From: Cytobacillus oceanisediminis 2691
Lineage (GTDB): Bacteria > Bacillota > Bacilli > Bacillales > Cytobacillaceae
Length of the DNA stretch: 64,000 nucleotides
Assembly (NCBI RefSeq): GCF_000294775.2
Contig: NZ_CP015506.1
Span: 2,083,501-2,147,500 of the forward strand
Reading direction: 5' to 3'
The notes below the pieces were generated by a model that saw only the letters and a list, made by a program, of their open reading frames with translations, was not told where the DNA came from and searched no databases. The stretch's first letter is position 1. Every line of letters begins with the position of its first letter. The position numbers and the translations under genes were made by a program. This document shows positions 507 through 51,671 of the stretch, in pieces.

Positions 507-707
507 TTATTTTCGCTCATATAGATCATCTACTTTAACACCCAATAAATCAGCTAATATGAACGCTTTATCCAAGGGAGGATAGGATCTTCCAGCTAAC
601 CAATTAGACAATTGTGTAGGTGTAATTCCGATTTTTTTTGCTACGTATTTTTTCATTAATCCTCTTTCCTCAATCCAATAGCCGATTTTACATTCCATAC
701 TAGCCAT
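507..707 (-). CDS. XRE-family helix-turn-helix regulator
   Basis: This 66-residue protein is almost entirely one Cro/CI-type HTH domain: helix 2-3 region VAKKIGITPTQLSNWLAGRSYPP followed by the typical DKAFILADLLGVKVDDLYE tail. An SD-like GAGGTG lies six bases before the ATG at 707; a second ATG four codons in is possible. It is transcribed away from the cassette starting at 1043, the usual arrangement of an element repressor and the operon it controls. A TTGTACAA palindrome at 739-746 lies just upstream and could be its operator. That it represses the cassette is inferred from position only. Confidence 0.8.
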   Translation of the reverse strand: MASMECKIGYWIEERGLMKKYVAKKIGITPTQLSNWLAGRSYPPLDKAFILADLLGVKVDDLYERK

Positions 708-738
708 ATAAACACCTCATGAAGGTATTCTCTCTATG

Positions 739-746
739 TTGTACAA
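739..746. promoter_or_regulatory. TTGTACAA palindrome, candidate operator of the XRE gene
   Basis: A perfect 8-bp palindrome lies 32 bases upstream of the XRE start. A related half-site, AGTACAAG, occurs near 790. Small XRE repressors commonly bind such short dyads in the divergent region; binding here is inferred. Confidence 0.35.
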
Positions 747-836
747 ACCCTTTCAAAATAAAAATGAATTTTAATCAAAAAAAATTTGGAGTACAAGATA
801 ACTTTTCAGCATTTGCCCATATAGATATTTTAACTA

Positions 837-914
837 GCAAATATATCAGTAAATACATTTACAAATATAGCAATAAATATATCTGCTAAATGTTTATATC
901 CAAATATATTTCTA
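837..914. repeat. AT-rich short repeats (AAATATAT family) upstream of the orphan cassette
   Basis: Within the 335-base stretch without a gene (708-1042), copies of AAATATAT-type words recur (near 839, 874 and 902), interleaved with AAATACA and AAATATAG, giving an extremely AT-rich block. This could be an operator array, a DNA-unwinding region or simply AT-rich spacer. No clean period is visible by eye. Confidence 0.3.
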
Positions 915-971
915 CCGTGTCCATCCATTAATAATAAACAATTTTAAAAAACATTTAGAGAGACATGTGAC

Positions 972-1015
972 CGGGAAGGAAGGAGAGGGGGCACGGGGGG
1001 GGGAGAGGAAGGAAA
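972..1015 (+). other. G-rich polypurine tract
   Basis: About 44 bases are almost purely G and A on the plus strand, with G runs of 3, 4-5 and 9 separated by GGAAGGA-type purines, interrupted only by two C bases. Such a tract directly beside an AT-rich block is unusual for this genome and could form a G-quadruplex or triplex. It lies upstream of the first cassette gene at 1043. Confidence 0.45.
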
Positions 1016-1042
1016 CCAATTTTAATTAAGGGAGAGAGATAA

Positions 1043-1153
1043 ATGATAAAATTTGTCCTTATCGGTAGTTACATTGTTCATAAAATTTATTGGAAACATG
1101 CTAATAAAAAGGTGTTAATTTCATGGAATAGCTTTTTTAAGGATGTGGCTTAG
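1043..1153 (+). CDS. 36-aa peptide, first gene of the orphan cassette
   Basis: A short frame begins with ATG after a GGGAGAGAG ribosome-binding site and encodes MIKFVLIGSYIVHKIYW... with a hydrophobic N-terminus and a basic tail. Its TAG stop is immediately followed by the ATG of the next gene, which suggests translational coupling. No family is recognised. Support is the good SD and the exact abutment with the next gene. Confidence 0.5.
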   Translation: MIKFVLIGSYIVHKIYWKHANKKVLISWNSFFKDVA

Positions 1154-1531
1154 ATGAGAGGAACAGCTTATCCAATTATTGCAGATAAACTAAAAACTAA
1201 GTATGAAAGCTTTAAATGGAATCAGCATGAACCAGGTATGGATGTTTTCACCGATCTTAATAAAGTAAAAACTTATTGTGGAAACTTTGGAGATTCAGTT
1301 CAGGAAACGACTTGTTGGTTAGACACGTTTAATTGGAGCATTATGAAACAAACAAAGCTTTCTGAAGATATATACCAGTTTATCTCCCATAGATCAGGTA
1401 TCGTAAGAAGGTCAATTGATAATGAAGTTGAGAATTTTCATATCAATTGGGAAGCACTCGATCCAATAAAAGATACTGTCCTTGAGCAATTCAAGAAAGG
1501 AGTATTTAACTTTATTGATCTAATGATTTAG
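1154..1531 (+). CDS. Conserved 125-aa protein of the FtsK/RRF cassette
   Basis: The function is unknown. The protein is soluble and acidic, and it resembles the 125-aa product at 17722-18099 in the prophage: the best shared block is IYQFISHRSGIVRRS against IYRLISHRVGIVKDS, and both precede a small membrane protein and an FtsK-like ATPase. The size and position recall the helicase-processivity protein HelP that precedes ConQ and NicK in ICEBs1, but no sequence relation to HelP is claimed. The start follows directly on the stop of the 36-aa peptide. Confidence 0.75.
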   Translation: MRGTAYPIIADKLKTKYESFKWNQHEPGMDVFTDLNKVKTYCGNFGDSVQETTCWLDTFNWSIMKQTKLSEDIYQFISHRSGIVRRSIDNEVENFHINWEALDPIKDTVLEQFKKGVFNFIDLMI

Positions 1532-1545
1532 GGAGGGTTAAGCAA

Positions 1546-1890
1546 ATGATACTTGCAGCAAAGAAAAAAGAGGTATTTACGGTGAGTGAGTTTTTAGCCC
1601 GTCAGCCAAAAGAACCTACTCAAAGTAATACACCTCATATTCCATTGTATGGTTACATGGGACTTGATACAACTTCAAGAAGCTTTTTTAGTGAATATGA
1701 TTTCAATACACCTTACTATATAGTTTTTGGAATTGCGGGAGTCCTTTTGGTATCAACCTTAATTGAAAATGTTTTTGTTGCTCATGGTAATCCTCGAAAA
1801 GCTGAACAGGTTAAAGCATTTACTCAATTTGCAATGCCAGTTGTATTTTACATCTTCCTTGCTGTAGGGATATTTAAAGTATTTCTATAA
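1546..1890 (+). CDS. Small membrane protein of the FtsK/RRF cassette
   Basis: This 114-residue protein has about 55 polar residues followed by two hydrophobic helices (about residues 58-74, YYIVFGIAGVLLVSTL, and 94-113, MPVVFYIFLAVGIFKVF). It is preceded by a GGGAGGG-type SD. In the prophage the equivalent slot (18118-18306) is a 62-aa protein with two membrane helices. A membrane partner of the ATPase encoded next is a reasonable inference, with no direct evidence. Confidence 0.7.
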   Translation: MILAAKKKEVFTVSEFLARQPKEPTQSNTPHIPLYGYMGLDTTSRSFFSEYDFNTPYYIVFGIAGVLLVSTLIENVFVAHGNPRKAEQVKAFTQFAMPVVFYIFLAVGIFKVFL

Positions 1891-1901
1891 GAGGTGGTCG
1901 A

Positions 1902-3131
1902 ATGTTCTCTTTGAAGGATTATCTGTATAAACAAAAAGTAAAATCAAAATTATTGGACTGTTTTAGATCTGCAGAAATTTATTTCACAGCAAAGGCTGGC
2001 AATAGAACAGTATATATTTATCCAAGAATCCATTCTGTGAAATACAAAACAAATGAAAAATTCACAGAGGTTGTATTTACATTGCTCAATGGGATGAATC
2101 CTCATGATTTAATGATAAAGAAAAGGTATGTACTAGAGCAGTATTTTGGGAAATCCATTGATTTACCAGGGGATTTAAAGAAGTTTGTGCTCAATATTTA
2201 CGATAAACCTTTGAAACCGGATCTAATTTATAAGTTTGAAGATATTCTGCCTTATTTACACACTGTCGAGAAGAAAAAAGGCAAAGTAGTTAAAATACCA
2301 TTAGAAATGCCAGTTGTTGTAGGTAAAAAGAAAAATGGAAGATTTTTAGTATTAGATATGCTAGAACTTCCTCATGTGATTATCCAAGGGACTACTGGAT
2401 CAGGTAAAAGTTCAGCCATAAGAGTTATTCTTACTACTTTGATTAAGTATAAACGACCAGAGGAGTTAGACATTTACTGTATAGATGGTAAACGTGCTGA
2501 ATTTGGGCTATTTAAGAAGGTGGAACACGTTCAAAAGGTTGTTTACTCAAACAAAGACGCTAGGAAAGTATTAAAAGATGTTACAAAAATGATGTATCAA
2601 AGGGAAGAATTGCTTGATACGTTTGATGTTCCTCATGTTAATGATTTACCGACGGAGCATAAACAGAAGTATATACTTGTTGCTGTTGATGAATTTATTG
2701 AATACCTGGATGACAAGGAATTAATGAGCGATATAATCAAAATTTCATCGAAAGGCAGAGCTGTAGGAATATTCTTATTAGCATCTGCGCAAAGAATGGA
2801 TGCAGATGTTATGGATACAAAAGCAAGAGGAAATTTCAATATTAGAATGAGCTTCAGAGCAGTCGATAAAACAAATGCTATGCTGCTTGGTACTCAGGGA
2901 GCAGAAAAGATTAAACGTGAAGAAAAAGGCAGATTAATTTTAAATTCTGGTGAAATTGAAGAATTACAATCCCCTCATTTGACCTATGACAAAGCAAGGA
3001 ATTTGCTGAATCCTTATATGGTTTCTAAAAGCAATATAAAAGATGTAACAGAGGTTCAGGGTGAGCCATCGTCTGATATTTGTGAAGTCCTAAATGAACC
3101 TCACAAAAATGACTTAGACTTATTTCTGTAG
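1902..3131 (+). CDS. FtsK/SpoIIIE-type DNA translocase (coupling-protein-like ATPase)
   Basis: This 409-residue protein has an FtsK/SpoIIIE ATPase core: Walker A GTTGSGKSS at about 163-171 and Walker B ILVAVDEF ending near 264, followed by a sensor region (SAQRMDADVMDTKARGNFNIRMSFR) typical of ConQ/TcpA-like and FtsK-like proteins. It lacks the N-terminal membrane domain and the C-terminal gamma domain of chromosomal FtsK. It is homologous to the prophage protein at 18303-19457. It likely pumps or channels element DNA; whether for replication, packaging or transfer is unknown. It sits between the membrane protein and the replication-relaxation gene. Confidence 0.85.
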   Translation: MFSLKDYLYKQKVKSKLLDCFRSAEIYFTAKAGNRTVYIYPRIHSVKYKTNEKFTEVVFTLLNGMNPHDLMIKKRYVLEQYFGKSIDLPGDLKKFVLNIYDKPLKPDLIYKFEDILPYLHTVEKKKGKVVKIPLEMPVVVGKKKNGRFLVLDMLELPHVIIQGTTGSGKSSAIRVILTTLIKYKRPEELDIYCIDGKRAEFGLFKKVEHVQKVVYSNKDARKVLKDVTKMMYQREELLDTFDVPHVNDLPTEHKQKYILVAVDEFIEYLDDKELMSDIIKISSKGRAVGIFLLASAQRMDADVMDTKARGNFNIRMSFRAVDKTNAMLLGTQGAEKIKREEKGRLILNSGEIEELQSPHLTYDKARNLLNPYMVSKSNIKDVTEVQGEPSSDICEVLNEPHKNDLDLFL

Positions 3132-3143
3132 GAGGATAACAAC

Positions 3144-3851
3144 ATGAGAAAACGTGATATGGATATCCTTTATTCATTAGAAAAGTTTAAATGTCTTGAA
3201 CGGGATCAAATAGCTGCTTTGCATTTTTCAAATAACAAGAATCCTATTGTTTCAGTCAACAGGGTTCTGAAAAGGCTCCGAATGGATGGATATGTTTTGG
3301 TGAATACAAACAGATCATTTAAACCCTATATATATTTCTACAATCCCTCCCCAATTAAATTAGACTCACAGAAAATTGATCATTATTTGATGATTGCTCA
3401 AGGTTATATAGATATGAGTAGGTATTCCAAAGTTGAAGATTACAAAATTGAACCTAAAATAGAACACGCTGATTTTATCCCAGATGTTGCTTGTAAATGG
3501 TTAGGAAATGAGTGGTTCTTAGAGTTTCAGAACAGCACATATACAATTAAACAGCTTTATGCCAAGTTGGATAAGTATAAGGAATATCTTGATAAAGGGT
3601 ATTGGAATAATCAAAGAGTGCTTATTATAGGTAAAACAAATCTTAAATTAGATGCTGATGATTATCCCTTTAAAGTTAAGCAGATTAGGAGCATTGAAGA
3701 CCTGAGTGAGACTATTCAGCAATTCAAGGAAATGAAGTATCAGGAGTTTAAGGGTAAGGTTAAGGAAGAAGCTGATGCGACTGTATCAAAGCCTAATGCA
3801 TTCTCTGAGAGCTATAAAAGTAAGGACGGAGTAATTAAGTTTGTATTTTAA
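3144..3851 (+). CDS. Replication-relaxation family protein (Replic_Relax)
   Basis: This 235-residue protein has an N-terminal winged-helix segment (MRKRDMDILYSLEKFKCLERDQIAALHF, two stretches) followed by a domain with the motif WFLEFQNSTYTIKQL. Members of Replic_Relax (PF13814) are encoded by plasmids, ICEs and some phages and have been proposed to act in plasmid relaxation or replication. The prophage copy at 19447-20088 has the same layout (ADIFAVFRKTPFFIEVQKTLYSEKQ). The E-x-Q core and preceding acidic residue recall a nuclease-like fold, which is inference. It is the last gene of the orphan operon. Confidence 0.8.
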   Translation: MRKRDMDILYSLEKFKCLERDQIAALHFSNNKNPIVSVNRVLKRLRMDGYVLVNTNRSFKPYIYFYNPSPIKLDSQKIDHYLMIAQGYIDMSRYSKVEDYKIEPKIEHADFIPDVACKWLGNEWFLEFQNSTYTIKQLYAKLDKYKEYLDKGYWNNQRVLIIGKTNLKLDADDYPFKVKQIRSIEDLSETIQQFKEMKYQEFKGKVKEEADATVSKPNAFSESYKSKDGVIKFVF

Positions 3852-3888
3852 ATGGTTATATTAAATTATTTTATATTGACTGATAATT

Positions 3889-3917
3889 TTGACAAAGTTA
3901 ATATTTGCCCGTATAAT
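3889..3917 (+). promoter_or_regulatory. Consensus sigma-A promoter before the excisionase-like gene
   Basis: TTGACA at 3889-3894, a 17-base spacer and TATAAT at 3912-3917 match the vegetative consensus exactly. The next gene begins 49 bases after the -10 box. An unregulated perfect promoter is rare, so an overlapping repressor site is likely. Confidence 0.75.
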
Positions 3918-3965
3918 AACCAAAGTGTTCTTAAGGACATGAAAAGACAACTATGAGGTGCAAAA

Positions 3966-4157
3966 TTGATAACAACACAGATCAACAGAGAAGAATTACC
4001 CGAAGCATTAACTCCGAGGCATATTCAAGAAATATTACAAATAGGGAAAAAGCAAACATATGAGATGATGGAGAATCCACCATTTCATGTAGTTAAAGTT
4101 GGCAGGTTATACAAAATATCTAAGAAAGCATTTTTTAAGTGGTTTGACGGAGAGTGA
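3966..4157 (+). CDS. Excisionase-like HTH_17 DNA-binding protein (orphan)
   Basis: This 63-residue protein has the MerR-like helix-turn-helix of phage and ICE excisionases: LTPRHIQEILQIGKKQTYEMM, then VVKVGRLYKISKKAFFKWF. The start is TTG, five bases after GAGGTG. It is related in pattern to the tandem pair at 16363-16736 in the prophage. No integrase follows, so either the recombinase gene was lost or the protein acts in trans. It is driven by its own consensus promoter and not by the upstream operon. Confidence 0.75.
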   Translation: MITTQINREELPEALTPRHIQEILQIGKKQTYEMMENPPFHVVKVGRLYKISKKAFFKWFDGE

Positions 4158-4391: not shown

Positions 4392-4490
4392 GTGTCTTAT
4401 AATGAAGCCATCTCAGAAGAAGATCAACCAAATGATGAATGCCATGAACAAGCAGACTGGCAAGTAATCAGGGACAAGCATCCCATCTGA
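4392..4490 (+). pseudogene. Possible 3' remnant of a host gene ahead of its terminator
   Basis: A 32-codon frame (VSYNEAISEEDQPNDECHE... ending WQVIRDKHPI) has protein-like composition but no ribosome-binding site, follows an in-frame stop, and is immediately followed by a terminator-like hairpin. This is what the tail of a truncated host gene would look like at the edge of an inserted element. The parent family is not recognised, and it may be chance. Confidence 0.25.
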
Positions 4491-13826: not shown

Positions 13827-13923
13827 GGGGCTGATTGGGGTGCTGGTGCCCTCCACGGTCTTCAAAACCGCTTGTGACCACCGTGTGTGGTCAGCTGGGT
13901 TCGATTCCCAGGCGGTCCCGCCA
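13827..13923 (+). tRNA. selC: tRNA-Sec (selenocysteine, anticodon UCA)
   Basis: The 97-base gene has the tRNA-Sec hallmarks: anticodon loop CTTCAAA giving UCA between GGT/ACC stems, a long variable arm TGACCAC/GTGGTCA (seven bp), a four-base D loop (TGGT), T arm CTGGG-TTCGATT-CCCAG, an extended eight-position acceptor stem (GGGGCTGA with GCGGTCCC; the last pair is a mismatch) and encoded GCCA. It decodes in-frame UGA with SelB. The 3' 69 bases are shared with the copy at 51603-51671, so this gene is a host 5' part joined to a phage-supplied 3' part and remains complete. Confidence 0.9.
13855..13923 (+). repeat. attL core repeat (69 bp, inside selC)
   Basis: Identical to 51603-51671 from ACGGTCTTC through the terminal CCA. 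The bases flanking the identity differ on both sides (C/A before, T/A after). The crossover lies within the repeat, most likely at the anticodon or T arm as for other tRNA-targeting tyrosine integrases. Confidence 0.92.
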
Positions 13924-16040: not shown

Positions 16041-16334
16041 ATGTCAGAATATCCGAAGCCAAAAATAATGATACATATGGCAGGTTCAAGACCTGTTATG
16101 AAAGTTCAAAAGAGAATTGCTGATAATTGGCGAAGATTGCCCTACCAAAAGTTAATAAAGGTCGGCCATACCAGTATCTTTATTCACTCAAACCTAGGGT
16201 TATTCAGCGATGAGCAGCGTAAGGAGTGGTTCAGGATTGCATTAGAGAAAAAGCATCCTGCGCTTATGGGTTTAGAAAGAACCGTACAGAAAATACATCC
16301 GAATAAGAAAGTGAAGATAGTGATTAGTGATTAA
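16041..16334 (+). CDS. Hypothetical phage protein (97 aa)
   Basis: This small basic protein begins MSEYPKPKIMIHMAGSRPVM and ends KVKIVISD. It has no recognisable domain or membrane segment. It is well supported as a gene by AAAGGAGG nine bases before the ATG. It lies upstream of the tandem excisionase-like genes and is more AT-rich than the surrounding early genes. Confidence 0.6.
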   Translation: MSEYPKPKIMIHMAGSRPVMKVQKRIADNWRRLPYQKLIKVGHTSIFIHSNLGLFSDEQRKEWFRIALEKKHPALMGLERTVQKIHPNKKVKIVISD

Positions 16335-16362
16335 GAGAAAGGAATCTTTAGGAGGTGGTAGC

Positions 16363-16551
16363 GTGAGCAAGCTGGAAGATAACGAAAAAGTGATGCTTGA
16401 CGCTAAAGACATAATGAGGTTGACTGGCGTAGGAAGAGATAAGGCATACGGCTTGTTACATAGTAAGCAATTTCCGGTGAAAATGATCGGTAGGAGGCGT
16501 ATGGTACATAAGGATGTATTTAATGATTGGTTAAAGGGCAAGGAGGTTTAA
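16363..16551 (+). CDS. Excisionase-like HTH_17 protein, copy 1
   Basis: This 62-residue protein has the MerR-like HTH of excisionases: MLDAKDIMRLTGVGRDKAYG followed by FPVKMIGRRRMVHKDVFNDWLKG. The start is GTG at 16363, six bases after GGAGGTGG. The next gene encodes a close paralogue only two bases after its stop. Excisionase or integrase directionality factor is the likely role; a transcriptional role is possible. Confidence 0.78.
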   Translation: MSKLEDNEKVMLDAKDIMRLTGVGRDKAYGLLHSKQFPVKMIGRRRMVHKDVFNDWLKGKEV

Positions 16552-16553
16552 AT

Positions 16554-16736
16554 ATGTGCGAAAAAATGATGCTTGATGTTAACGATATAATGAAACTCAC
16601 TGGTATCGGGAAAAATAAAGCTTATGGGCTACTTCAAAGTAAGCAATTCCCTGTAAAAATGATTGGCAAAAAGAGGTTAGTACATAAAGATATATTCAAC
16701 GATTGGCTAAAGGGTAAGGAGTATAAGGTTCGTTGA
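16554..16736 (+). CDS. Excisionase-like HTH_17 protein, copy 2
   Basis: This 60-residue paralogue of the preceding protein has MLDVNDIMKLTGIGKNKAYG and FPVKMIGKKRLVHKDIFNDW, nearly residue-for-residue the same HTH. The SD AAGGAGG lies inside the last codons of copy 1, so the two are coupled. Lysine-for-arginine changes dominate the differences, which points to a tandem duplication followed by drift. The pair may form a heterodimer or recognise two arm sites. Confidence 0.78.
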   Translation: MCEKMMLDVNDIMKLTGIGKNKAYGLLQSKQFPVKMIGKKRLVHKDIFNDWLKGKEYKVR

Positions 16737-16864: not shown

Positions 16865-17272
16865 CTAATTATTAGCCTCTTTATTAATTCTATATAAAAC
16901 TTTTGATAATTCCTGGTTAATTTGTCGACCACTAAATCGTAAAACGTGCCATCCGTTCTTTCTCAAAAAAGCGTTTTTACGTCTATCGTGCGCTTTTTGT
17001 GCAGGAGAGCTATGGAATGCTTTACCGTCACATTCTATAGCTAATTTAAGTGTTGGGATGGCTAAGTCGATGGAATATCTTCCGCAAGGTACTTGCGTTC
17101 TTACAACGTAGCCCTGAGATACTAATGCATCATACAAAATTCGTTCGATTGGGCTCTGGCATCTAATTCTTTCAGCTGCAACAGGAGATAATATAGGATC
17201 ACTGGGTTTGTGGAATAAATATGCTAAAAAACCAGCGATCAAAATGCCTATAAAAACGATATACTCGACCAT
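16865..17272 (-). CDS. Membrane-anchored DUF559/restriction-like endonuclease domain protein
   Basis: This 135-residue protein has one N-terminal membrane helix (about 4-20, YIVFIGILIAGFLAYLF) then a PD-(D/E)XK-like domain of the DUF559/Vsr type: SPIERILYDAL, then RYSIDLAIPTLKLAIECDGK and a final GWHVLRFSG. The SD GGGAGGTG lies before the ATG at 17272. It is transcribed against the lytic genes from a region shared with the XRE gene, so it is probably expressed in the lysogen. A nuclease tethered at the membrane could act on incoming DNA; this is inference. Confidence 0.75.
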   Translation of the reverse strand: MVEYIVFIGILIAGFLAYLFHKPSDPILSPVAAERIRCQSPIERILYDALVSQGYVVRTQVPCGRYSIDLAIPTLKLAIECDGKAFHSSPAQKAHDRRKNAFLRKNGWHVLRFSGRQINQELSKVLYRINKEANN

Positions 17273-17335
17273 AAATTGCACCTCCCTAAAAGGAATTATT
17301 GCCAAAATGGAGAAATATTAGGCGAGGTGATAGAG

Positions 17336-17721: not shown

Positions 17722-18099
17722 ATGATTGTCAAAATTAACGGCGTCCCAACGGACTATGATCGGATTCATCAAATTATCGTAGACAATTCGTACGACTCTA
17801 TCGGAGAAGCTGTCGCGGATAAAGTAAAGACCGCTATCCACGATACGGAATGGTATCAGCATACCAGCGACTTTAACGTTTTTCGTGACTACGATGCAGT
17901 CGATAACCTTTGCGGCGATAACGCTATTTGCTGGATGGATGCGGTTAATCGATCCGTAATGGAAACGACAGAGCCTACGAAAATGATTTACCGGCTTATT
18001 TCACATCGAGTTGGCATCGTTAAAGACTCTTTCGCAAAAAACTTTTGGCCTGAAGAGTTTGATTGGGAATTGGTGCTCGATTGCATCTTATGGTTTTAA
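17722..18099 (+). CDS. Conserved 125-aa protein of the FtsK/RRF cassette (prophage copy)
   Basis: This soluble protein has the same length as the product at 1154-1531. The clearest shared block is IYRLISHRVGIVKDSF. The first 25 residues (MIVKINGVPTDYDRI...) are not shared. It follows AAGGAGG and starts the prophage cassette. The function is unknown, but its linkage to an FtsK-like ATPase and a replication-relaxation protein holds in both loci, suggesting that it works with them. Confidence 0.75.
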   Translation: MIVKINGVPTDYDRIHQIIVDNSYDSIGEAVADKVKTAIHDTEWYQHTSDFNVFRDYDAVDNLCGDNAICWMDAVNRSVMETTEPTKMIYRLISHRVGIVKDSFAKNFWPEEFDWELVLDCILWF

Positions 18100-18117
18100 C
18101 AAAGGGAGGAATTTCGC

Positions 18118-18306
18118 ATGTTATTTACACCAACGTTATTACTGGCCGGAGGAGCTACGATAGTCCTGGCCGCATTAGACAAGACGCTGGAAGGCTACGG
18201 ATTCGGGGCGCTTGGCACAATCTTGCGCATAGCCCTGCCGATAGCCGCCTTTGCTGCCGGTATTTACTTCATTGAAACTAATGCAATTATCGGGTGGCTC
18301 CGATGA
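18118..18306 (+). CDS. Small two-helix membrane protein of the cassette
   Basis: This 62-residue protein is almost wholly hydrophobic, with two predicted membrane helices (about 4-20 and 32-52). The SD GGGAGG precedes the ATG. It overlaps the FtsK-like gene by four bases (ATGA), so the two are translationally coupled. It occupies the same slot as the 114-aa membrane protein at 1546-1890, although sequence similarity is not obvious. A membrane anchor for the ATPase is a fair inference. Confidence 0.7.
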   Translation: MLFTPTLLLAGGATIVLAALDKTLEGYGFGALGTILRIALPIAAFAAGIYFIETNAIIGWLR

Positions 18307-19457
18307 ACTGGCGCGAGTCCTGGGCGAAATTGCAGACCCGTCAGCGCCTTGTGAAAGCATTTAAAGCAGCCGAACTTTATCTCGGCGACATCGAGCGTCC
18401 TACATTCCCGAAAATACATTCCACTACTATATCCGCAGACTCTACCGCCATTACCTTCACTTTGCCAAACGGCCTGGACCCGAAACTCCTAACGAAAAAC
18501 CTTTATGTATTCCAGCAACACTTCGGAAAGAATATCCGCCTGGATGGAGATATTAAACGGTTTACGCTGATGATTAATAAAAATAGTCTGCCGCGAAAAC
18601 TTACCTATTCATACGGGTCGACGTCGACTCAACTAGCTGACTATGATATGCCGATCCTCTGCGGAAAAGATTCAGCCGGCAACTACATGGTCTATGACGC
18701 AATATCCGAGCCGAACTGTCTTATCTCCGGTGAGCCAGGCGCAGGCAAGTCGACTCAGCTCCGGAGTATCCTATCGACATTAATTCAGACCAAGACGCCG
18801 GATGAGTTGCAGATATTCCTTGGCGACCTTAAGATGAGCGAGTTCTTTCTGTTTAAAGGCGTCCAGCACGTTAAGAGTGTCTGCGTCTATGCGGAAGATA
18901 TGGCCGTCATGCTGGCCTATTTGCACGGCGAAATGAAGCGTCGGGGCGAGCTCCTTAATAAATACGGCGTTACACATATTAATAAGTTGCCGAAAAAGCC
19001 TCCGTATATTCTGCTGTGTATCGACGAGTTCGTAATGATAATGGACGATAAGCAGATGAAAAAGCAAATCGTGCAGCTTGTGGCGCTTGGCCGTGCGTTA
19101 GGTATCTATTGCATCTTATCGCTTCAGAGGCCGTCACACGATATTCTCGATACTAAAATTCGTGGATTGCTTACTGTGCGTATGGGATTCCGAACGACTG
19201 ACCTATCGAATAGCCGGATCATTGGGACGCCTGGAAGTGAGCGCATAAGCAAGGAAACGCCGGGACGCTTTCTTATTAAACGGGACGAATTGACGGAGCT
19301 TCAAGCGCCTTACTTAACGGAAGAGAAGGCTGAGGAATTGCTAGCGCCACATAAGGCGGACGGCTGGACGGATATGTTTGCCGGAGTGAACCGGACAGCA
19401 AATTCCACGACGTCGGGGGTTTTAACAGAAAGCGATGTGTTTAACGATGTTAACTAA
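18303..19457 (+). CDS. FtsK/SpoIIIE-type DNA translocase (prophage copy)
   Basis: This 384-residue ATPase has Walker A GEPGAGKST at about 143-151, Walker B LLCIDEF near 241 and a conserved SLQRPSHDILDTKIRGLLTVRMGFR-type sensor region (residues spread over about 278-302). It aligns along its length with the orphan ATPase at 1902-3131 (for example LFKGVQHVKSV against LFKKVEHVQKV). There is no N-terminal membrane domain. It may drive replication, segregation or transfer of phage DNA; packaging has a separate terminase. Confidence 0.85.
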   Translation: MNWRESWAKLQTRQRLVKAFKAAELYLGDIERPTFPKIHSTTISADSTAITFTLPNGLDPKLLTKNLYVFQQHFGKNIRLDGDIKRFTLMINKNSLPRKLTYSYGSTSTQLADYDMPILCGKDSAGNYMVYDAISEPNCLISGEPGAGKSTQLRSILSTLIQTKTPDELQIFLGDLKMSEFFLFKGVQHVKSVCVYAEDMAVMLAYLHGEMKRRGELLNKYGVTHINKLPKKPPYILLCIDEFVMIMDDKQMKKQIVQLVALGRALGIYCILSLQRPSHDILDTKIRGLLTVRMGFRTTDLSNSRIIGTPGSERISKETPGRFLIKRDELTELQAPYLTEEKAEELLAPHKADGWTDMFAGVNRTANSTTSGVLTESDVFNDVN

Positions 19458-20088
19458 GCGTGATAAAGCAATAATAAACGATTTAAATAGATTTCGCGTG
19501 ATGGATCGGAACAGCGTGGCGGAGCTCCATTTCGCTAATTTAAAGAATCCAATTAGCGCAGCGAACACGGTGCTCCTCCGGTTATTGCGTGAAGGCCAGA
19601 TACAGCGCACAACCGCAACTATTCCGTATTGCTATTACGGTCCGGAACTTACTATAAAGAAGAATTCCGCAAAGATAGGCCACTGGCTCGCGATTCTCAA
19701 CGTATATAAGGAAATGCGGAAGCAAGGGCCGGTCGAAACGTTCCAGGTCGAGCCAAAGTACGGAAGCAAGGGCGTAGCTGAGCCGGACATATTTGCCGTA
19801 TTTAGAAAAACGCCTTTCTTTATCGAAGTGCAGAAGACACTATACTCCGAAAAGCAAATGGCGGAAAAGATGAATCGCTATGTAGACCTTTGCCGATCCG
19901 GTGTCATTCCGAAGCCGTTTCCGCATGTGTTAATCGTGAGTGAGCAGCGTTATGCAATAGATGGGGATTGGCCGTTTAAAGTATTTCAAGCGCAGACATT
20001 TTCGAGGTTTATGGAGGCGCTGAAACCGAAGCAAACGCCTCAGCCGGTTAGAGCCAAGGAAGGTGGTATTAGATATATTGTCAATTAA
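19447..20088 (+). CDS. Replication-relaxation family protein (prophage copy)
   Basis: This 213-residue protein begins MLTKRDKAIINDLNRFRVMD with a winged helix, then VAEPDIFAVFRKTPFFIEVQ. It matches the orphan copy at 3144-3851 in order and motifs. The ATG at 19447 overlaps the FtsK-like stop by 11 bases; an in-frame ATG at 19435 is the alternative. The gene is convergent with the membrane-protein gene at 20091, with two bases between the stops. It is probably a replication or relaxation factor acting on phage DNA. Confidence 0.8.
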   Translation: MLTKRDKAIINDLNRFRVMDRNSVAELHFANLKNPISAANTVLLRLLREGQIQRTTATIPYCYYGPELTIKKNSAKIGHWLAILNVYKEMRKQGPVETFQVEPKYGSKGVAEPDIFAVFRKTPFFIEVQKTLYSEKQMAEKMNRYVDLCRSGVIPKPFPHVLIVSEQRYAIDGDWPFKVFQAQTFSRFMEALKPKQTPQPVRAKEGGIRYIVN

Positions 20089-51602: not shown

Positions 51603-51671
51603 ACGGTCTTCAAAACCGCTTGTGACCACCGTGTGTGGTCAGCTGGGTTCGATTCCCAGGCGGTCCCGCCA
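51603..51671 (+). repeat. attR core repeat (partial tRNA-Sec)
   Basis: This is an identical copy of 13855-13923: anticodon arm, variable arm, T arm, acceptor 3' strand and CCA. The tRNA 5' part is missing, so this copy is non-functional. It marks the right prophage boundary. Confidence 0.92.

Follow-up and report, generated by a model that had tools for sequence, protein, structure and literature searches.

This locus raises the question of whether a compact gene cassette near the left edge of a 64,000-nucleotide stretch of Cytobacillus oceanisediminis 2691 (contig NZ_CP015506.1, positions 2,083,501 to 2,147,500; 'the window' below means this whole stretch) is an independent element, and of what its products might do. 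The cassette encodes a 125-residue protein, a small membrane protein, an FtsK-type DNA translocase, a 'replication-relaxation' (RR) protein and an excisionase-like helix-turn-helix (HTH) protein. A preliminary description, made from the letters of the window, regarded it as an orphan, perhaps a satellite or a borrower of functions from a prophage nearby. We find that it is the right-hand end of a full-length prophage (P1) truncated by the window edge, and that P1 and the neighbouring prophage (P2), which are separately integrated, hold diverged versions of one module. By homology, the cassette belongs to a large family of such modules on Bacillales phages and plasmids. We favour, at about an even chance and on the strength of sequence comparison and predicted structures, the reading that it is an optional and repressible mobilisation (MOB)-like module, in which an origin-of-transfer (oriT)-like site is combined with a MOBC-type relaxase and with an FtsK/TcpA-type coupling protein split between two genes.

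Prophage P1 and the second version of its cassette

An exact 75-bp sequence to the right of the cassette recurs upstream of the window, and P1 spans 37,609 bp between the two copies. We read them as the attachment sites attL and attR because the repeat sits in the 3' end of a UPF0154 gene. A tyrosine integrase gene (L023:7128-8051) directly follows attL, and the 40 kb examined upstream of window base 1 also hold genes for the small and large terminase subunits, portal, prohead protease, capsid and a PhageMin_Tail (tape-measure-like) protein, with a holin and an amidase nearest the window edge. The integrase, capsid and terminase genes that had been reported missing are thus all present, their absence being an effect of the window edge, and we rejected the orphan or satellite reading on the evidence of these att repeats, integrase and structural genes. 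The second, related element that the preliminary description had suspected is P1, with att sites and an integrase of its own. A provirus contig in IMG/VR (37,030 bp) has the same cassette; its right-hand 10,256 bases, the part compared, are 100% identical to P1. The features of P1 are as follows (window coordinates except for attL).

L023:6868-6942, attL of P1, in the 3' end of the UPF0154 gene, an exact 75-bp copy of attR
507-707, minus strand, XRE/Cro-type repressor-like gene, 66 aa, divergent from the cassette (HTH_3, 1.1e-11)
815-835, plus strand, P1 counterpart of a conserved block (GCCCATATAGATATTTTAACT), left end of the control region, recognised by eye against L124/L125, the closest relatives, used as reference
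830-913, plus strand, seven degenerate 12-bp iterons (period 12 the best of 9-24, z 4.1 against 12 shuffles)
973-1015, plus strand, polypurine tract (41 of 43 purines)
1154-1531, plus strand, 125-aa accessory protein, optional part of the module
1546-1890, plus strand, small membrane protein, 114 aa, proposed motor anchor
1902-3131, plus strand, FtsK/TcpA-type DNA translocase, 409 aa (FtsK_SpoIIIE, 3.9e-26)
3144-3851, plus strand, RR protein, candidate MOBC-type relaxase (PF13814, 6.8e-16), predicted winged helix and PD-(D/E)xK-like nuclease
3966-4157, plus strand, excisionase-like HTH gene (HTH_17 1.1e-5 and TIGR01764 6.2e-4, both under curated cut-offs)
4402-4476, attR of P1, exact 75-bp repeat of attL

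The excisionase-like gene is the last of the cassette and stops 245 bases short of attR. The repressor-like gene additionally gave a sub-threshold match to the RstR family. The portal gene of P1 is split between two ORFs (L024:2778-3347 and 3375-4025), each matching one half of the Phage_portal family, and P1 may for that reason be defective.

In P2 the corresponding features are these.

13855-13923, attL of P2, inside a tRNA-Sec gene, 69-bp exact repeat
17722-18099, plus strand, 125-aa protein, with BLAST homology to the P1 copy
18118-18306, plus strand, small membrane protein, 62 aa
18294-19457, plus strand, FtsK-type translocase, homologous to P1 FtsK
19435-20088, plus strand, RR protein (PF13814, 26.5 bits against a cut-off of 25.3)
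51603-51671, attR of P2, 69-bp exact repeat

The ORFs and repressor positions first reported for both cassettes agreed with ours. Window 1154-3851 is homologous to 17722-20088 in gene order and in sequence: the FtsK proteins of P1 and P2 are 37% identical over 371 columns (E 6e-85), the RR proteins 32% (E 1e-31) and the 125-aa proteins 35% (E 4e-19). The excisionase-like HTH proteins are weakly similar as well, at 24% identity (E 2e-7). The small membrane proteins have no significant BLAST similarity and are alike only in position and in their hydrophobic stretches. The proposal that the cassette duplicates a module of the neighbouring prophage is borne out by these pairwise homologies.

The insertion target of P2 is a predicted selenocysteine tRNA gene (window 13827-13923), to our knowledge an unusual integration target. 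P2 also has two similar, overlapping excisionase-like HTH ORFs (window 16327-16551 and 16527-16736) and, close to its cassette, a DUF559/MTES_1575 nuclease-like gene (window 16865-17305); DUF559 genes likewise lie near the cassette on plasmid pLW1071, on a B. weihaiensis plasmid and on a Sutcliffiella plasmid.

A module family on phages and plasmids

Of 61 genomes, 12 contain relatives of the module, a count that includes the host genome itself; others are present in the phages GBSV1, SpaA1, 268TH007, phi18-2 and Bfsp1 (Salasmaviridae), and on plasmids. Two RR queries returned 147 and 149 plasmid records, and FtsK returned 647 at E 1e-5, many of these being other FtsK-type proteins. Across 199 loci, RR adjoins 188 of 195 FtsK-profile hits, a count partly biased by the many loci that were fetched with RR as bait. 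The hits that lack it are long FtsK/EssC-like genes of the host chromosome (L003, L004, L006), a stretch that stops right after FtsK (L026), and L119, L138 and L064 (two contigs; fetched through, or overlapping, RR matches), which hold no complete RR ORF. Removal of FtsK proteins 95% alike reduced 185 paired loci to 112 non-redundant ones (93 viral contigs, nine whole genomes, eight annotated records, one genome contig and the window), which underlie the counts that follow.

The cassette is often preceded by a divergent HTH gene: members of one BLAST cluster lie within 1.5 kb upstream in 74 of the 112 loci, 72 of them on the minus (opposite) strand, and the XRE gene of P1 is a putative counterpart of these. 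Lysis genes are also frequent neighbours, with a holin/endolysin cluster (named, like the ParA-like cluster below, by eye from representatives) within 6 kb in 58 of the 89 loci that have at least 4 kb upstream. The 125-aa protein, which matched no Pfam or NCBIfam family, was counted as optional because only 10 distinct members were found, the window's two included; nine of them have positions, 519-794 bp upstream of FtsK.

The module is a discrete, swappable unit. Two B. subtilis phages that are 96% identical have been reported to differ mainly by 2,525 bp encoding FtsK, RR, an HTH protein and a hypothetical gene (PMC9476937; here and below, statements cited by PMC number refer to the accessible parts of those papers). 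In the 9 kb that we compared, a segment of 2,525 bp with FtsK, RR, a small gene and an HTH gene is the sole difference between 268TH007 and 268TH002; a 9-bp sequence resembling a ribosome-binding site stands at both cassette ends in 268TH007, and in 268TH002 the same 9-bp sequence joins the ribosome-binding sites of two HTH genes. A cassette without neighbouring phage genes, which the preliminary description had proposed looking for, is carried by pLW1071, a plasmid typed as conjugative.

A further plasmid, pBac41 of Mangrovibacillus (L029), is a 16.6-kb circle with no annotated head genes that shares 7.5 kb, at 99.4% identity, with the chromosome of the same genome. The shared segment includes lysis genes and the cassette, and pBac41 is perhaps a mini-phage or an assembly effect.

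The proteins and the DNA in front of them

The preliminary description had seen no known conjugative relaxase in the cassette. The RR protein of P1, however, scores 59.4 bits against PF13814 (cut-off 25.3), a family listed as MobC relaxase, and a TraX-like protein of plasmid pTEF1 scores 28.5 bits; the P2 protein was not among the rows of the whole-genome PF13814 scan, though above the cut-off when scored directly. The TraX-like protein, labelled 'replication-relaxation family protein', lies on pTEF1, a pAD1-like plasmid typed MOBC, one small gene from a protein with a TraM-recognition domain. Two other yardsticks were tried: CloDF13 MobC gave no usable match among the ORFs of its record, and pWCFS103 was set aside, being typed MOBQ. 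PF13814 is given as a MobC relaxase, with a VirD4 partner, in 2 of 144 streptococcal integrative and mobilizable elements (IMEs; Coluzzi et al., PMC5357655), and in a survey of S. suis 71 IMEs combined a relaxase of the PF13814 family with VirD4 (PMC12479173).

The predicted structure of the RR protein (pLDDT 91.5) consists of three helices and a wing, followed by a helix, three strands, a helix and a strand (alpha-beta-beta-beta-alpha-beta), a fold that we read as a predicted winged helix joined to a PD-(D/E)xK-like nuclease. Among its weak Foldseek matches in the PDB are winged-helix proteins, Cdn1, Bax1, BamHI and the nickase Nt.BspD6I, the last three of which we take to be PD-(D/E)xK nucleases. 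Residues E103, D114, E127, Q129 and K141 are identical wherever aligned (110 or 111 of 112 sequences, the remainder being gaps). A 2025 review relates MOBC relaxases to PD-(D/E)xK endonucleases and describes pAD1 TraX as a protein whose N-terminus forms a winged helix and whose binding sites are five direct repeats, located 70-120 bp away from nic (PMC12857230).

The FtsK model (pLDDT 91) aligned in Foldseek over nearly its full length to both the E. coli FtsK motor and TcpA of pCW3. The TM-scores to TcpA (6o1z) were 0.67/0.75, FtsK being equally close, and the sequence profile likewise matched both (about 5e-35 to TcpA and 1.5e-39 to FtsK). The Walker-type residues G163-S170 and D263-E264 are invariant among 53 sequences. 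By a simple hydropathy test, a hydrophobic ORF lies immediately upstream of FtsK in 94 of the 112 loci; in five others (L057, L062, L067, L075 and L104) FtsK itself carries an N-terminal hydrophobic stretch, which replaces the separate ORF, and 13, two of them cut by a contig end, have neither. We infer from this pattern that the small membrane protein is probably the detached membrane anchor of the motor.

Upstream of the genes, 77 of 110 loci have a conserved block (TTGGACAA..CATAGGCTATTAACACGAAAGC) that scored higher than the 98th percentile of shuffled sequence, with a model that was refitted iteratively and so favours hits, the lowest scorers possibly being chance. The viral contigs with an exact 21-letter pattern of it, CATAGGCTAWTAACACRAAAG, number 12, and each of them belongs to the set retrieved for the cassette. 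Part of the block, CATANNNTA, is also compatible with the -10 pattern of sigma-K; a promoter reading stays only a possibility because the conserved bases extend beyond the -10 box.

A second feature of the control DNA is the iterons. A copy 91% identical to P1 (G011), and so not independent of it, has the same 12-bp period (z 6.4), and Tandem Repeats Finder reported nothing in the control regions of P1 (score 30) or P2. Across loci, lag 12 had the highest mean z among lags 7-40 and exceeded z 3 in 27 of 104 loci, with 17 for lag 24, 21 for lag 36, 14 for lag 11 and one each for lags 10 and 13. The motif TAYCAARRTA and its reverse totalled 103 copies versus 1-6 in shuffles, with at least two copies in 23 of 105 loci. 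A single iteron motif for all loci was rejected, there being loci with neither the motif nor a lag of 12 or 11; among 23 early loci, repeated k-mers in the upstream DNA likewise gave no common iteron.

The polypurine tract of P1 is the sole run of at least 40 of 43 purines or pyrimidines within the 64-kb window. At least 34 of 40 purines were found in 35 of 110 loci, versus four for pyrimidines; P1 reached only 30 of 40 in that count because it extended just 800 bp upstream of FtsK. A search of the control regions of eight loci against Rfam, at gathering threshold, returned no known RNA there, and the only two hits in these loci were group II intron parts downstream of one cassette (L106:8703-9002).

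A mobilisation-like module and its rivals

Several known systems resemble the module in part. Like the MOBC relaxases (pAD1 TraX, CloDF13 MobC), the RR protein scores above the PF13814 cut-off, has an N-terminal winged helix and a PD-(D/E)xK-like core (both predicted), and is encoded beside a coupling-protein-type gene, with repeats in the cis region of many loci; it differs in its FtsK/TcpA-type rather than VirD4-type partner, its E-x-Q motif and its temperate-phage carriers, and its nicking activity is putative. The preliminary description had likened the cassette to the helP-conQ-nicK core of ICEBs1, whose ConQ we take to be a TcpA-type coupling protein. That likeness holds insofar as DNA mobilisation is probably concerned, but not for the relaxase, which is not of the Rep_trans/NicK type: PF02486 is not among the Pfam hits of the P1 RR protein and is unmatched in the whole genome. 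The motor resembles TcpA-type coupling proteins (pCW3) in being FtsK-like and encoded directly upstream of a relaxase-like gene, the order also reported for TcpA-carrying IMEs and integrative and conjugative elements (PMC5357655), whereas here the membrane part is mostly a separate gene and the module has no mating-channel genes. Streptococcal IMEs share the compact order of coupling protein, relaxase and excisionase, with an integrase on the element, but here these genes lie within a prophage that has capsid and lysis genes. The TdtA-NurA pair of Thermus ICETh1 likewise combines an FtsK-HerA-family pump with a nuclease on an integrated element with direct repeats, although its nuclease is of the NurA type and its motor HerA-like, and no iteron array is mentioned in the accessible part of that source (PMC5365140). 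Streptomyces TraB, one FtsK-like pump acting on the cis locus clt with 8-bp repeats (PMC5365140), reads those repeats through its own C-terminal HTH, whereas here the separate RR protein would do so.

According to the mechanism that we propose, the repressor would hold the cassette off. On expression, the winged helix of the RR protein would recognise the control region ahead of the genes and its nuclease domain would cut or nick it, in the way that pAD1 TraX acts on oriT; the FtsK-type motor, tethered by the separate small membrane protein, would then pump the DNA of the element, with the optional 125-aa protein perhaps serving as an accessory factor. The mating channel would be supplied by a helper element. 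We searched the host genome for channel genes of the VirD4/TraG-like, PF12642, PF02486 and AAA_10 families; a VirD4/TraG-like match and a sub-threshold PF13814 match lie about 2 kb apart in a region of its second contig (387 kb; G000:C2:247179-282783), which also has a sub-threshold AAA_10 match and perhaps encodes a conjugation system.

More tentatively, and with somewhat less than even confidence, we suggest that dozens of temperate phages of the Bacillales carry a conjugative-start module of this make-up, with iterons as the oriT-like site, which is both repressible and swappable, that they could leave the cell either in virions or through the mating channel of a helper, and that the cassette is exchanged between phages and plasmids. 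Were such a MOB module real, transduction and conjugation would be less sharply separated in one class of prophages; among phage-plasmids of the E. coli phage P1 kind, all but two are reported to be without a relaxase or oriT (PMC10879196). The FtsK and RR genes are already known from genome announcements and surveys, and so are PF13814 relaxases, those of the two surveys cited above having VirD4 partners. In records the two families bear the labels 'FtsK/SpoIIIE' and 'replication-relaxation', and the published proposals for what these genes or related ones do conflict with one another: a role in SOS and prophage induction (PMC9476937), the control of DNA injection (PMC3853050), plasmid replication (PMC9703825) and a partial transfer system (PMC8508797). 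Considered jointly, FtsK, RR, the membrane protein and the control region form one testable unit, and the natural pair 268TH007/268TH002 simplifies the test. We met no description of that unit with its control region in a literature search outside which most subscription papers lay, so that its novelty is not proven.

Several observations weigh against the mobilisation reading. For the RR protein, the sequence profile found no sequence match in the PDB and Foldseek no PDB structure at E 0.001 or better, and the profile matched the TraX-like pTEF1 protein weakly (10.9 bits, a score that one of 300 shuffles surpassed with 11.1; hhalign probability 24%). The catalytic residues of TraX-type relaxases are D, E-x-E and K; D114 and E127 are conserved in the RR family, but the second acid is replaced by Q129 and the lysine is differently placed. 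In the accessible text of the two streptococcal surveys, PF13814 relaxases accompany VirD4, not TcpA (PMC5357655, PMC12479173). Regarding the control DNA, the P1 block scores 1.0, under the threshold of the general block model, lag autocorrelation for the P1 iterons is weaker (z 2.1), and the control region of P2 has no 12-bp array, block or purine tract above threshold. MOB-suite classed 103 of 149 RR plasmids as non-mobilizable, and neither PF12642 (TcpC) nor PF02486 (MobT) is matched anywhere in the host genome.

The strongest rival, which we nevertheless consider unlikely, is that the cassette serves replication or segregation of the excised circle in a phage-plasmid life style, in which the RR protein would bind the iterons, either as an initiator or to mark a centromere, and the membrane-bound motor would maintain or partition the circle. 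The iteron arrays and G-rich polypurine tracts upstream would suit such a role, as would the PHROGs name of the RR family ('replication initiation protein'), an actin-like gene near 17 of the 112 loci and a ParA-like gene near 15. The cassette also resides on plasmids of 16.4 and 15.2 kb (L032, L033), where a scan of ten unannotated proteins recognised no Rep family and gave one sub-threshold NikA-like match. SpaA1, GBSV1 and pLW1071, however, have separate replication or partition genes, and the absence of the cassette from 268TH002 would be unexpected of a module needed for replication. Phage exclusion, in which motor and nuclease would degrade incoming DNA at the membrane in the manner of HerA-nuclease systems, is less supported and in our view improbable: an FtsK/HerA-type motor paired with a PD-(D/E)xK-like nuclease, a repressor of its own, presence/absence polymorphism and the lysis-gene neighbourhood, a usual cargo site, would all fit, yet RR matched no PADLOC model at E 1, FtsK matched SspH, mad8 and, for P1, HerA (9.5e-5, 0.0029) via its ATPase region only, and a cassette-specific DNA block with iterons would not be expected in a defence system.

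That the cassette is an independent satellite or mobilisable element beside the prophage is barely credible, despite its compact repressor-to-excisionase order and the pLW1071 copy without phage genes around it. A phage satellite has boundaries of its own and an incomplete structural set, but this cassette lies within the P1 att repeats, no integrase ORF is listed in 507-4157, and inner boundary repeats were not searched for; unlike an IME, it shares one att-bounded element with capsid, terminase, portal and lysis genes. Forespore delivery, by which a SpoIIIE-like pump would pull the element into the spore, is likewise less supported than replication or segregation and seems to us highly improbable, the nuclease partner being superfluous for it. 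A Spo0A_C match occurs in all 14 RR-positive genomes, but also in 325 of the 398 genomes of the class as a whole, and the chance of 14 in 14 is about 0.06 by our own arithmetic, which is not significant; among the RR plasmid records, the ten named genera, with one further genus unnamed, are spore-forming Bacillales.

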